Shown piece after piece: positions 13,524 through 17,482 of a DNA stretch of 36,292 bases. Positions within the stretch are counted from its first letter, which is position 1, and every line of letters begins with the position of its first letter. The position numbers and the translations under genes are program-made. Origin of the DNA: Acidobacteriota bacterium (GTDB lineage Bacteria; Acidobacteriota; Thermoanaerobaculia; UBA5066); NCBI GenBank assembly GCA_029567505.1, contig JAKPXO010000231.1:1-36292 (forward strand), written 5' to 3'. A model generated the notes under the pieces. The model was not told where the DNA came from. It made no database searches and worked only from the letters and a program-made list of their open reading frames with translations.

Positions 13524-15908
13524 ATGACCGTTCAGAGCACGCGACCGCCCCGCGCCTTCCTCCTCGCCGCCGTCCTCGTCACGGCCTTCGTCACGTCGGG
13601 ATGCGCCGCCGAGCGCGCCTTCCGCCAGGCGCGGGACCACGAGCAGCGCCAGCACTGGGACCTCGCCGTCATGGCGTACGAGAAGGCGAACGAGCTCGAC
13701 CCGGTCAACATGAAGTACCAGACGGCGCTCTTCCGCTCGAAGATGCAGGCGGCCCAGACGCACCTCATGCGCGGGCGCCTCCACCGCTCGGCCGGACAGC
13801 TCGACCTCGCGAAGGTGGAGCTCGAGCAGAGCGTCGCGCTCGACCCGACGAACGACGTCGCCCTCCAGGAGCTGAAGCGGGTCGAGCAGGAGATCGAGGA
13901 GCGCCGGGCCGAGGTGGCCGGGGGGACGCCGACGGAGAGGGCGAAGGCGCGGGCGCGGGGGCGGTCGGCCGCCCCGCCGATGCTCCACCCCGCCTCCGAC
14001 GAGCCGATCAGCGTGTCGTTCCCTCCCGACTCGCCGATCAAGAAGATCTACCAGGCGCTCTGCGCCGCCTCCGGGATCAACGTCATCTTCGACCCGCAGC
14101 TGAAGGACGACAAGTTCACGATCGACCTCCGGAACCTGACCTTCCAGAAGGCGCTCGAGACGGCCATGCGCCAGGCGGGGCACTTCTACAAGGTGATCGA
14201 CGAAAAGACGATCCTCATCGCGCAGGATACCCAGCAGAACCGGAAGGAGTACGAGGACCAGGTCGTCCGGACCTTCTTCCTCTCGAACGGCGACGTGAAG
14301 GACGTCTCCCAGATGGTCCGGGGGCTCCTCGACCTGCGCCGTATGGGGACGATCCCGCAGCTGAACGCGATCGTCATCCGCGACACGGCCGACAAGGTCG
14401 CCGTCGCCGAGCGGCTCATCGAGGTGAACGACAAGGCGAAGGCCGAGGTCGTCCTCGACGTCGAGCTCCTCCAGTTGAGCACGACGAAGCTCCTCGAGCT
14501 CGGCGCGACGCTCTCGAGCTACAAGATCACCGGCAGCCCTAACCTCGGAACGGGAACGACCTCGCTCCCGTGGCAGGACCTCCTGAAGCTCTCGCTGTCC
14601 GACTTCAACTTCACGGTCCCTTCGGTGGCCGTCAGCTTCATCAAGCAGAACTCCGACTCCGAGCTTCTTGCCAAGCCGCAGCTCCGGATCGCCGAAGGCG
14701 AGAAGGCCCAGCTCGTCATCGGGGACCGTGTCCCGATCCCGGTGACGACGATCAACACGCAGCAGGCGATCGGCCAGAGCGGCGTTATCCCTGTGACCTC
14801 GTTCCAGTACCAGGACGTCGGCATCAAGCTCGACATCGAGGCGCGGGTCCACCATAACCGGGAGATCTCCCTGAAGCTCACGGTCGAGATTTCCGAGATC
14901 AACGGTTACGTCGAGAACGAGAACCAGGGGCGGCAGCCGATCATCGGGACGAGGACGATCACGACGAACATCCGTCTGAAGGACGGCGAGACGAGCTTCT
15001 TGGCCGGACTCATCAAGAACAAGAAGGTCTCGTCGAAGGAAGGCCTCCCCTTCCTCTCGGAAATCCCCCTCCTCGGAAGCCTCTTCAAGAAGACGAGCAA
15101 CGACGTCAAGCACGACGACATCTTCCTGACGCTCACCCCCCACATCACGCGCGCCCCGCAGATCACGGAGGAGGACCTTGTCCCGGTCTGGGTCGGGACG
15201 GAGAACAACGTCTCCTTCTCCGGCCTGAACGTGAGGCTCGAGTCGCCGCAGGCGCCCGAGACGCCGTTCGACCCGCCCGCGGAGGCGCCCGCCTCGCGTC
15301 CCGTCGCGCCGACGGGCCCCGTCCCGGGGACGATGCCGGGTCGGGCGATCCTCCCCGTCCAGGGGAGCGGTCCGAACGACCCGTTCCGGCGAACGCCGGC
15401 GCCGGCCCCGGCGCCCGCGCCGAAGGAGGGCTCGAACATCCTCTCGGGCGACGCGGCGCAGCGCTCAGCGGCCTTCGTCGAGTCCGCGGGGCCGCGACCC
15501 CTCGCCCTCGGCCTCGAGATAGAGAACGGCGAGCTCGCGGTGGGCGAGACCGCTCTCTTGACGCTCTCCGGCCCGTCCGAGCTCGCCGACGCCGGCGCGC
15601 TCGAGGTGACGATCGAATGGGACCCGGCGGTCGCCGAGCTCGTCGCGGTGACGCCCGGCCCGTGGCGGACCGGCTCGGCGGCCCTCAACACGCGCCTCGA
15701 CGCCGATCGGGGGCCGGGACGAGTCCGTATCGGCCTCGGCACGCCGACGGGCGTCGTCGGCCTCCCGAGCGGCGCGCTCGCCCGCTTCACGCTCCGCGCG
15801 CTCGCCCCAGGCGACGCCCTCGTGAGGGTCTCCGCCGGCGCGGGGCTCGGCAAGAGCGGTCCGCTTCGCCCCGAGGCGAACGCGGTGCCGCTCGTCGTGA
15901 GGGACTGA
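13524..15908 (+). CDS. gspD: secretin lipoprotein with N-terminal TPR and C-terminal cohesin domain (GspD/PilQ family)
   Basis: This 794-residue protein has a lipobox ending at C27 (FVTSGC), so it is likely an outer-membrane lipoprotein. Order: TPR helices at about 30-130 (HWDLAVMAYEKANELDPVNM), a secretin N-domain at about 157-240, a NolW-like domain at about 243-305 (VRTFFLSNGDVKDVSQMVRG), and the secretin beta-barrel pore at about 307-540. A Pro/Ala linker at about 565-650 leads to a cohesin-like domain at about 660-794 (GLEIENGELAVGETALLTLS, ending ANAVPLVVRD). It forms the outer-membrane channel of this system. A cohesin tail on a secretin would sit at the periplasmic or outer face and may bind substrate or anchor the ring. 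Similar fusions exist in related groups as far as I recall. Confidence 0.92.
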   Translation: MTVQSTRPPRAFLLAAVLVTAFVTSGCAAERAFRQARDHEQRQHWDLAVMAYEKANELDPVNMKYQTALFRSKMQAAQTHLMRGRLHRSAGQLDLAKVELEQSVALDPTNDVALQELKRVEQEIEERRAEVAGGTPTERAKARARGRSAAPPMLHPASDEPISVSFPPDSPIKKIYQALCAASGINVIFDPQLKDDKFTIDLRNLTFQKALETAMRQAGHFYKVIDEKTILIAQDTQQNRKEYEDQVVRTFFLSNGDVKDVSQMVRGLLDLRRMGTIPQLNAIVIRDTADKVAVAERLIEVNDKAKAEVVLDVELLQLSTTKLLELGATLSSYKITGSPNLGTGTTSLPWQDLLKLSLSDFNFTVPSVAVSFIKQNSDSELLAKPQLRIAEGEKAQLVIGDRVPIPVTTINTQQAIGQSGVIPVTSFQYQDVGIKLDIEARVHHNREISLKLTVEISEINGYVENENQGRQPIIGTRTITTNIRLKDGETSFLAGLIKNKKVSSKEGLPFLSEIPLLGSLFKKTSNDVKHDDIFLTLTPHITRAPQITEEDLVPVWVGTENNVSFSGLNVRLESPQAPETPFDPPAEAPASRPVAPTGPVPGTMPGRAILPVQGSGPNDPFRRTPAPAPAPAPKEGSNILSGDAAQRSAAFVESAGPRPLALGLEIENGELAVGETALLTLSGPSELADAGALEVTIEWDPAVAELVAVTPGPWRTGSAALNTRLDADRGPGRVRIGLGTPTGVVGLPSGALARFTLRALAPGDALVRVSAGAGLGKSGPLRPEANAVPLVVRD

Positions 15909-15915
15909 GGCCGCC

Positions 15916-16380
15916 GTGAAGGCTCGCTCCCGCGTCCGCGGCTACTCGCTCGTCGAGCTCGTCGTCGTCGTCACGATCATCCTGACGCTGACGGCGATGA
16001 TCGTGCCGGTGGCGCGGTTCAACTGGACGCGGATGAAGGAGATGGAGCTGAAGGAGGCGCTTCGGACGATGCGCACGGCGATCGACGAGCACAAGCGCCT
16101 CTCGGACCAGGGGCTCATCCCGGTCGAGCTCGACACCGAGGGCTACCCGAAGGAGCTGGAGGATCTCGTGAAGGGGATCGAGCTCGTCGGGCAGGTCAAG
16201 AAGACGCAGCGGTTCCTTCGGAAGATCCCGATCGACCCGATGACCGGGGAGGCGGAATGGGGCCTCCGGAGCCTCCAGGACGACCCCGACTCGACGAGCT
16301 GGGGTCGACAGAACGTCTACGACGTCTACTCTCTCTCGGAGAGTACGGCGCTCGACGGGACGAAGTACAAGGACTGGTGA
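15916..16380 (+). CDS. gspG: type II secretion pseudopilin (GspG-like)
   Basis: This 154-residue protein starts at GTG 15916 with GAGG five bases before. The short basic leader is cut after Gly in RG|YSLVELVVVVTI, with the key Glu at position +5. A typical hydrophobic N-terminal helix follows, and then a GspG-like C-terminal domain (KIPIDPMTGEAEWGLRSLQD, YDVYSLSESTALDGTKYKDW). The DP..G..W layout and the acidic, aromatic end are usual for major pseudopilin GspG with its calcium site. It is likely the main subunit of the pseudopilus built by the upstream genes. No prepilin peptidase gene is present in the window. Confidence 0.9.
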   Translation: MKARSRVRGYSLVELVVVVTIILTLTAMIVPVARFNWTRMKEMELKEALRTMRTAIDEHKRLSDQGLIPVELDTEGYPKELEDLVKGIELVGQVKKTQRFLRKIPIDPMTGEAEWGLRSLQDDPDSTSWGRQNVYDVYSLSESTALDGTKYKDW

Positions 16381-16385
16381 CGACG

Positions 16386-16901
16386 ATGCCCCCTGAAGAG
16401 ACTCTCGCCCCTCAGCCTCCCCTCCGGTCCTCGAAAGACCGTGGCTTTACGCTCATCGGCTCGCCGGGGGGCTTCCCGCTGGTTGCCCCCCGGACCCCCC
16501 CTGCTTCGACGAAGCACCGTGGCTTCACGCTCATCGAGTTGCTCGTCGTGATGGCGATCATCGGGACGCTCGCGGCGATCGGCATCCCGATGCTGATGAA
16601 CACGCCGATCAAGGCGAAGGAGGCGGCGCTGAAGGAGAACCTCTTCACGTTCCGCTCCTGCCTCGACCAGTACAAGGCCGACAAGGGCCACTACCCCGAG
16701 TCGCTCGAGGTGCTGGTCTCGGAGAAGTACATCCGGAAGGTCCCGGTCGACCCGTTCACGAAGTCGGCCGACACGTGGGAGCTCGTCTACGAGGAGCCCG
16801 ACTCGGCCGAGGCCGCCTCCGAGGAGCCGCCGGGCATCATCGACGTCAAGTCGGGCTCCGATATGACCGCGATCGACGGGACGCCGTACAACACGTGGTG
16901 A
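16386..16901 (+). CDS. pseudopilin with a duplicated prepilin leader motif
   Basis: This 171-residue GspG-like pseudopilin carries the prepilin motif twice. The first is KDRG|FTLIG at residues 18-25, with G20 as the cut site but Gly in place of Glu at +5. The second is KHRG|FTLIELL, cut after G46 with Glu at E51, and is followed by the hydrophobic helix. Only the second should give a functional subunit, leaving a 46-residue leader that is unusually long. No start codon exists between the two copies. The DNA shows why: a 20-base segment is repeated 78 bases apart, in frame (see repeat). The C-terminal half (KADKGHYPESLEVLVSEKYI, DPFTKSADTWELVYEEPDSA) is GspG-like, and it ends IDGTPYNTW. Confidence 0.86.
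   Translation: MPPEETLAPQPPLRSSKDRGFTLIGSPGGFPLVAPRTPPASTKHRGFTLIELLVVMAIIGTLAAIGIPMLMNTPIKAKEAALKENLFTFRSCLDQYKADKGHYPESLEVLVSEKYIRKVPVDPFTKSADTWELVYEEPDSAEAASEEPPGIIDVKSGSDMTAIDGTPYNTW
16439..16536 (+). repeat. in-frame 20-bp direct repeat flanking a 58-bp palindrome-rich insert
   Basis: The segment at 16439-16458 recurs at 16517-16536 with one mismatch (19 of 20). The 78-base offset is exactly 26 codons. The 58 bases between hold a 9-bp perfect inverted repeat, CCGGGGGGC (16464-16472) and GCCCCCCGG (16485-16493), and a second palindrome GCTTCG-A-CGAAGC (16503-16515). This resembles insertion of a small palindromic element with a duplicated flank, or a local tandem duplication followed by drift. 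I see no other copy in the window. Confidence 0.75.
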
Positions 16902-17482
16902 AGGCCGGCCGGGCGGCGGGGCGCCGGGGGCGCGGCGGGGGCTACACGCTCGTGGCGCTCCTCGTCGGGATGACGGTCGCTTCGATCCTCATCGCGGCCG
17001 TCCTCCCGCTCGCCTCGGCCCAGGCCCAGCGTGAGAAGGAGGCCGAGCTCGTTTTCCGGGGCCTCCAGTACGCGGAGGGAATCCGTGTCTTCCGTCGCCG
17101 CTTCGGGCGGTATCCGAACTCGCTGGGCGAGCTCCTCGAGGTGAAGCCGCGGAGCGTCCGGCAGCTCTGGAAGGACCCGATGACGAAGGACGGCGAGTGG
17201 GGAATCATCTCCCTCGAGGGGACCGCGGTCGTTCCGCCCTCCACGGGGCTGAAGGGGCGGCCGACGCCGACGCCCACGCCGACGCCGACGCCGAGTCCGT
17301 TCAAGCCGCCGCCGGGCGCGGGCGGCGGGGACCGAACGGGGCCAGTCCTGGGCGTCTACTCGAAGTCGACCGAGCGGGGCTATCGGCTCTGGGAAGGGCG
17401 CGAGGCCTACAACGAGTGGAAGTTCACGGAGGCGAGCCTGACGAGCAAGGGGCGGTCCGGAAGCGGACCGGGGATCAACTGA
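16898..17482 (+). CDS. third pseudopilin-like protein, lacking Glu+5, with PT-repeat linker
   Basis: This 194-residue protein starts at a GTG overlapping the previous stop (GTGA). A basic, Gly-rich leader ends GGG|YTLVALLVGMTVASILI, a prepilin-type site, but position +5 is Ala rather than Glu. Loss of this Glu is a feature of tip pseudopilins such as GspK. The soluble part (ELVFRGLQYAEGIRVFRRRF, DPMTKDGEWGIISLEG) resembles GspG-like minor pseudopilins. It is interrupted by a PTPTPTPTPTPSP linker at about residues 121-135. It is probably a minor or tip subunit of the pseudopilus made by this operon. It is the last gene of the run. Confidence 0.82.
   Translation: MKAGRAAGRRGRGGGYTLVALLVGMTVASILIAAVLPLASAQAQREKEAELVFRGLQYAEGIRVFRRRFGRYPNSLGELLEVKPRSVRQLWKDPMTKDGEWGIISLEGTAVVPPSTGLKGRPTPTPTPTPTPSPFKPPPGAGGGDRTGPVLGVYSKSTERGYRLWEGREAYNEWKFTEASLTSKGRSGSGPGIN
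17260..17294 (+). repeat. CCGACG-type short tandem repeat coding a Pro-Thr linker
   Basis: Near-perfect repeats of CCGACG and CCCACG code alternating Pro-Thr. A similar tract in the PilP-like gene lies at about 13254-13278. Such tracts can vary in length without a frameshift because the unit is six bases. Confidence 0.6.

Follow-up and report, generated by a model that had tools for sequence, protein, structure and literature searches.

How does a pseudopilin gene come to carry its prepilin cleavage motif twice, with palindromic DNA between the two copies? The question is raised by an open reading frame in the window, that is, the whole stretch of 36,292 nucleotides analysed here, which is one contig (G000:C28) of the fragmented, 532-contig assembly of genome G000, whose nearest named relatives carry the labels Thermoanaerobaculia or Acidobacteriota and are metagenome-assembled genomes. 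The product of this frame matches PF07963 (N_methyl; 1.4e-9, residues 43-65) and PF08334 (T2SSG; 3.6e-4, at its cut-off), and it scores 58 bits with the NCBIfam GspG model TIGR01710, below the cut-off of 88.85. It thus combines a prepilin cleavage/methylation motif with a T2SSG domain, as a GspG-like pseudopilin of type II secretion does. Upstream lie a secretin gene (13524-15908) and another pseudopilin gene (15916-16380). The next frame (16903-17482), which as listed has no family match, carries a prepilin-like GYTLVALLV near its start, with Ala replacing Glu at +5, and a Thr-Pro repeat (PTPTPTPTP) inside. The features of the locus are the following:

16386 to 16901, forward strand: insert-bearing GspG-like type II secretion pseudopilin gene, 171 aa (Pfam N_methyl and T2SSG)
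16407 to 16458, forward strand: upstream copy of the duplicated leader, 52 nt (repeat search)
16459 to 16500, forward strand: REP-like element with GCTCG head, 9-bp hairpin with 12-nt loop, and ACCCCCC tail (exact matches, family consensus, DNA fold)
16464 to 16472, forward strand: left arm of the hairpin, CCGGGGGGC (inverted-repeat reading)
16485 to 16493, forward strand: right arm of the hairpin, GCCCCCCGG (inverted-repeat reading)
16501 to 16516, forward strand: tail joining the element to the downstream copy, with the dyad TGCTTCGACGAAGCA (chance level)
16485 to 16536, forward strand: downstream copy of the leader, continuous with the gene body (repeat search, N_methyl match at residues 43-65)
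16459 to 16536, forward strand: net 78-base in-frame addition with respect to the sister species G003 and G001 (orthologue comparison)

The initial annotation had pointed to 16386-16536 and described there a 20-base stretch coding the cleavage motif that occurs twice with one mismatch, and both the location and the description are correct: the RGFTLI-coding stretch stands at 16439-16458 (CCGTGGCTTTACGCTCATCG) and again at 16517-16536 (CCGTGGCTTCACGCTCATCG), at a spacing of 78 bases (26 codons). These two stretches are the last 20 nt of longer copies, since, according to a repeat search, the duplication continues to the left and reaches 52 nt in all (16407-16458 against 16485-16536, 73% identity). 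The upstream copy ends in a truncated RGFTLI motif and adjoins the GCTCG end of the element at 16458/16459, and the end of the downstream copy opens an intact RG/FTLIEL motif. The reading frame is open throughout, and its translation, MPPEETLAPQPPLRSSKDRG-FTLIGS...TKHRG-FTLIELLVV, bears out the earlier statement that the first motif lacks Glu at +5 (it has Gly), that the second is intact, and that a leader of 46 residues results. Translation from the ATG at 16386 runs through the hairpin; reading of the sequence reveals no in-frame ATG, GTG or TTG between the hairpin and the intact motif, and the only possible alternative start is a CTG at 16479. Prepilin cleavage would be expected after Gly46 (16521-16523). 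The leader of type IV prepilins is removed by prepilin peptidase, and for this reason the mature pseudopilin should be unchanged.

Between the two motifs lie a 9-bp GC inverted repeat with a 12-base loop (16464-16493), as had been annotated, and a GCTTCG/CGAAGC palindrome (TGCTTCGACGAAGCA, 16502-16516). Each by itself is unremarkable for DNA of such composition: the 36-kb window holds 22 hairpins with arms of at least 9, against 9-26 in Markov controls, and 19 dyads with 7-bp arms, against 8-16. The hairpin count being within the Markov range, significance of the hairpin on its own was rejected. The GCTTCG/CGAAGC palindrome was likewise discarded as part of an element, because it is at chance level and does not recur in the family described below. 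Of the two palindromes originally proposed as components, then, the hairpin stands as a family member, whereas the smaller dyad is present but not conserved, and the element is not the whole 58-base unit but a sequence of about 42 bp (16459-16500). Its layout is GCTCG-CCGGGGGGC-loop-GCCCCCCGG-ACCCCCC, 42 bases in all, and its predicted DNA fold has an energy of -13.8 kcal/mol (z -3.2).

The comparison drew on three other genomes of the same genus (G001, G002 and G003) and one of another genus in the same family (G008), all of them fragmented metagenome-assembled genomes, G000-G003 being 75-96% complete. The initial annotation had proposed a search of the genome for further copies, and the hairpin is indeed found at further loci. 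Each of the four members of the genus has 4-21 matches to CCGGGGGG-loop-CCCCCCGGACCCC (strands summed; 13 in G000), and the reversed control pattern has 0 in G000-G003; these counts refer to the exact pattern in fragmented assemblies, leave degenerate copies uncounted, and are to be read beside a benchmark of >100 per genome for the REPs of RAYT systems. The 55 copies collected from G000-G003 share the GCTCG head (63-87% conservation at each base) and, following GGA, a C-run, beyond which no conserved tail was found. The loop-closing pair changes in a compensated manner (C-G, T-A, A-T). The members are short imperfect palindromes, GC-rich and dispersed, in which the head is conserved. The window element matches it exactly at 16459-16472 (GCTCGCCGGGGGGC) and at 16485-16500 (GCCCCCCGGACCCCCC), and its loop (TTCCCGCTGGTT) is unlike those of the other copies. 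A search of Rfam returned a single sub-threshold match, far from every element. Four hairpins of G000 (L002, L003, L071 and L074) have no flank duplication and are embedded in a longer intergenic repeat, itself GC-rich, whose ends resemble GGGAGGG-TCCC; this is possibly another repeat family.

Comparison of the gene in close relatives, also suggested at the outset, is equally informative, as the two closest genomes lack the 78-base insert. The site is MPPEETLAPRTPPQASKGRGFTLIEL in G003 and MPPDETLAPPTPLRPAKGRGFTLIEL in G001, and the gene reads MPPEETLAPRTPPQASKGRG-FTLIELL and MPPDETLAPPTPLRPAKGRG-FTLIELL, respectively; the leader is much shorter in G002 and in most other family members. Because the same gene is uninterrupted in G003 and G001, the segment 16459-16536 was gained in the G000 lineage, as a palindromic insert of 78 bp that lies in frame within an open reading frame and is missing from these relatives. 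The G003 leader, however, already contains GCCCCCCGGACCCCCC, which forms the 3' half of the element, in the corresponding position, and 28 copies of this 16-mer occur in G000-G003, nearly all inside recognisable elements (the reversed control pattern has none). Two histories would account for this: an older copy of the element, since collapsed, lengthened the leader in a common ancestor, or the leader's own sequence served as the landing site. The right arm could therefore be old leader sequence and only the 26 bases 16459-16484 new, and, since the right half of the element coincides with the GCCCCCCGGACCCCCC of the G003 leader, the duplicated target is probably longer than the 20 bp first assigned to it (52 nt, diverged).

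These facts also bear on the proposal that the leader was duplicated locally by slippage and the hairpin arose later by mutation of the C-rich leader, with no mobile element. The two copies do align over 52 nt in register, and the right arm need not be new given its presence in G003. Such an origin is nevertheless improbable: on the left, the new part is GCTCGCCGGGGGGC without a mismatch, the same as the 5' half of the family with its conserved head, and the same hairpin with flank duplication recurs at many unrelated genes. The insert is most likely one more member of the dispersed hairpin family, an ORF-less element of about 42 bp that inserted in frame and duplicated its flank, as the initial annotation had supposed; the dispersed family and the insert-free sisters agree with this. 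This REP-like element consists of the GCTCG head, the GC-rich palindrome and the GGACCCCC end; its arrival would have lengthened the leader-coding part of the GspG-like gene by 78 bases and duplicated part of the region. As 78 is divisible by three and prepilin peptidase cuts the leader off, the second cleavage motif would have stayed functional and the insertion would have been tolerated.

Long flanking duplication is characteristic of the family. It was scored against random positions, which replaced a shuffled-pair control inflated by orthologous copies: a score of at least 18 is reached by 13 of the 52 copies with enough flank for scoring, against 3 of 5000 random positions, and the window element scores 19.5. 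About two thirds of the copies have no detectable flanking duplication. The duplicated sequence is the start or the end of the adjoining gene, and its length varies (about 18-73 bp), which is not the fixed-length target duplication of a MITE of a DDE transposon; a known transposase with a fixed cut would not yield such lengths. Among gene starts (gene names at family loci were read from translations, not database annotations), those of the dihydroorotate dehydrogenase gene (DHODH; two copies, about 65 bp in common), glyS and a formyltransferase-like gene are duplicated; among gene ends, those of macB (44 bp exact in G001), a mutase gene (about 38 bp, exact in G000), pccB, pstB, malF, a sigma54-regulator gene and others. 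In G008, the ends of the sigma54-regulator (36 bp exact), NDK and macB genes are duplicated. Three loci have two units in tandem: glyS, the formyltransferase-like gene and the region upstream of a STAS-domain gene (G000). The window has this same form, its second unit being intact. At the DHODH start of G000 (L216, G000:C446), the upstream truncated copy comprises about 65 bp nearly identical to the gene start, whereas in G001 and G003, where hairpin and tail are homologous, the orthologous copies are no longer than about 21 nt. It seems that the copy in G000 was lengthened or renewed with sequence copied from the gene.

Empty counterparts exist in sister genomes for the glyS start (three genomes), the macB, mutase, pstB and sigma54-regulator ends (two each), the pccB end (one) and the gspG start of the window (two); the malF site of G000 is less clear, since it could be a filled site that collapsed and not a true empty one. 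An artefact of the metagenome assembly, in which two strain variants were joined in tandem, would be compatible with the 532 contigs and with the many differences between the two leader copies, but it is extremely improbable in view of an insert that is in frame, of an architecture that recurs in other species assembled independently, and of a hairpin family and empty sites that are consistent across genomes.

The duplications have a fixed polarity. At every readable gene locus, and for gene starts and gene ends alike, the truncated orphan copy touches the GCTCG end of the hairpin, with the complete gene on the side of GGACCCC. This was read by eye from the sequences, not by a scripted count, at the window, glyS, formyltransferase, DHODH, L058, macB, mutase, pccB, pstB, malF, sigma54-regulator and NDK loci; 12 of 12 in one direction would be expected about once in four thousand under random orientation. 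At etfA the reading is weak. A symmetric insertion at a staggered cut fits the duplications but not the polarity. The same feature counts against capture of the hairpin at a staggered break followed by fill-in and Ku-dependent end joining: duplications of variable length would be expected from it, but one-sided polarity is not predicted, and no Ku gene was found in G000-G003 (75-96% complete; Ku is present in G008), so that this route is very improbable. Similarly, RVT_1 reverse transcriptases, of which G008 has two, were not found in G000-G003 at the same completeness, which speaks against a retroelement moving by target-primed reverse transcription; the lack of Ku and reverse transcriptase genes in these four genomes weakens both end joining and retro-insertion.

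Several filled sites exhibit, in addition, recoding of the gene-connected copy with respect to the empty orthologue, mainly synonymous and close to the hairpin. In macB of G003 (L225, G003:C509), 10 of the 13 terminal codons are changed relative to G000, all synonymously, against 7 of the 48 preceding codons, and 8 of these 13 differ synonymously from G001 and also from G002. Near the hairpin, 5 of 6 codons are changed in the sigma54 regulator of G001 (4 of 55 elsewhere) and 3 of 5 in glyS (8 of 55 elsewhere). Several of the recoded macB codons (AGT, CGT, TTG) are uncommon in so GC-rich a genus. Other filled sites are little recoded, and some gene ends, such as that of the L058 gene, vary as much between empty sites; the recoding is an observation in need of a larger sample. 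It is what would be expected if the gene end and hairpin of a diverged relative had recombined in the gene body, with an illegitimate joint at the hairpin, so that the native end was orphaned: gene-connected copies are often recoded and the orphan is native-like (macB of G003, the sigma54 regulator of G001), and there is a parallel in mobile elements of fungal mitochondria (PMC3630166). Such homology-assisted exchange is nonetheless unlikely, because the junction lies at the GCTCG end each time, several duplications are exact (44 bp in macB of G001, about 38 bp in the mutase gene of G000, 36 bp in the sigma54 regulator of G008), gene termini can vary freely between species (L058 gene), and the gene-connected copy of the window is not strongly recoded.

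As to the mechanism behind the family, duplications, polarity and empty sites observed, we infer its steps and prefer, with low confidence, an insertion coupled to replication. The C-rich 3' end of the single-stranded hairpin would anneal to a G-run of the template outside the gene and be extended through the gene end, and the 5' end of the hairpin would be ligated to the oncoming strand once that strand had displaced 20-70 nt. The outcome would be a duplication of variable length with exactly the polarity observed. Together with polarity and variable length, this priming model is favoured by native G-runs at the joints of the sigma54 and mutase sites and by G- or C-runs at the joint in the window (G-runs occur in 0.5-0.8% of random 30-bp windows). 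On the other hand, the glyS and pstB targets have no G-run, and the simple priming model leaves the synonymous recoding of some gene-connected copies unexplained.

No mobilising enzyme was identified for the family among the Y1_Tnp flanks, Ku and RVT_1 genes examined in G000-G003. The REP elements linked to RAYT proteins are short, GC-rich imperfect palindromes with a GT(A/G)G head, and the rayt genes are flanked by REPs (PMC2817692). Movement of a REP by a Y1-type transposase (RAYT) would account for the anatomy of the present element, a short head followed by a GC-rich imperfect palindrome, and Y1_Tnp genes exist in all four genomes G000-G003. This is still a decidedly unlikely explanation: the hairpin is absent from the flanks (up to 1.5 kb) of all eight Y1_Tnp genes, whereas a rayt gene, by description, always has its own REPs on its flanks, and larger target duplications are not made by IS200/IS605 transposition (PMC2817692). 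The hairpins resemble REPs and BIMEs (PMC2817692) in being dispersed, mostly intergenic and often in tandem pairs, but differ from them in the head (GCTCG), in the long gene-end duplications of fixed polarity and, for the window copy, in sitting inside a gene.

Other systems offer partial parallels. Rickettsia palindromic elements (PMC10969869) also lie in frame in protein genes and are translated, a likeness of architecture, but they measure about 150 bp against about 42 bp here, and in most cases the present element is not translated but leaves the gene unharmed through a duplicate of its end. GC clusters of yeast mitochondria (GC42; PMC4478555) are likewise ORF-less mobile GC-rich hairpins of about 42 nt whose units merge, yet their duplications are of 2-3 bp, in contrast to the 18-73 bp copied here from gene ends. 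The nearest precedent found for the recoding is provided by mobile ORF elements of fungal mitochondria (PMC3630166), in which the native gene end is orphaned downstream and a synonymously diverged copy takes over; those elements carry an endonuclease ORF, whereas here there is only a hairpin and gene starts are affected too. No description matching REP-like repeats with long target duplications was found in the literature.

Palindromic repeats are common in bacteria. The one-sided duplication of gene ends by the sister copies suggests an unusual, gene-sparing kind of small mobile DNA. We regard this family-wide duplication as newly recognised, and the family as a new variety of REP-like palindromic repeats. 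It may represent a class of ORF-less mobile hairpins, moved by no known transposase, that insert with one polarity, spare the gene by duplicating its start or end, are primed by replication and sometimes leave a synonymously recoded functional copy; this is a reading that we put forward tentatively, as a real possibility. The window copy would then be an insertion inside a coding region, kept since it is in frame within a cleaved leader. The filled and empty sites, the fixed polarity and the gene-end duplications of variable length narrow down the mechanism and open it to testing, and insertions of this type provide a simple route by which gene ends and leader peptides become longer or are replaced. 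Within Acidobacteriota the exact pattern is rare (8 of 396 genomes, four of the 8 in this family). In a distant member of the phylum (L268/L273, G204:C7:198719-198830), there are two copies of a related hairpin at a period of 76 bases, and their 34-bp spacers are identical.
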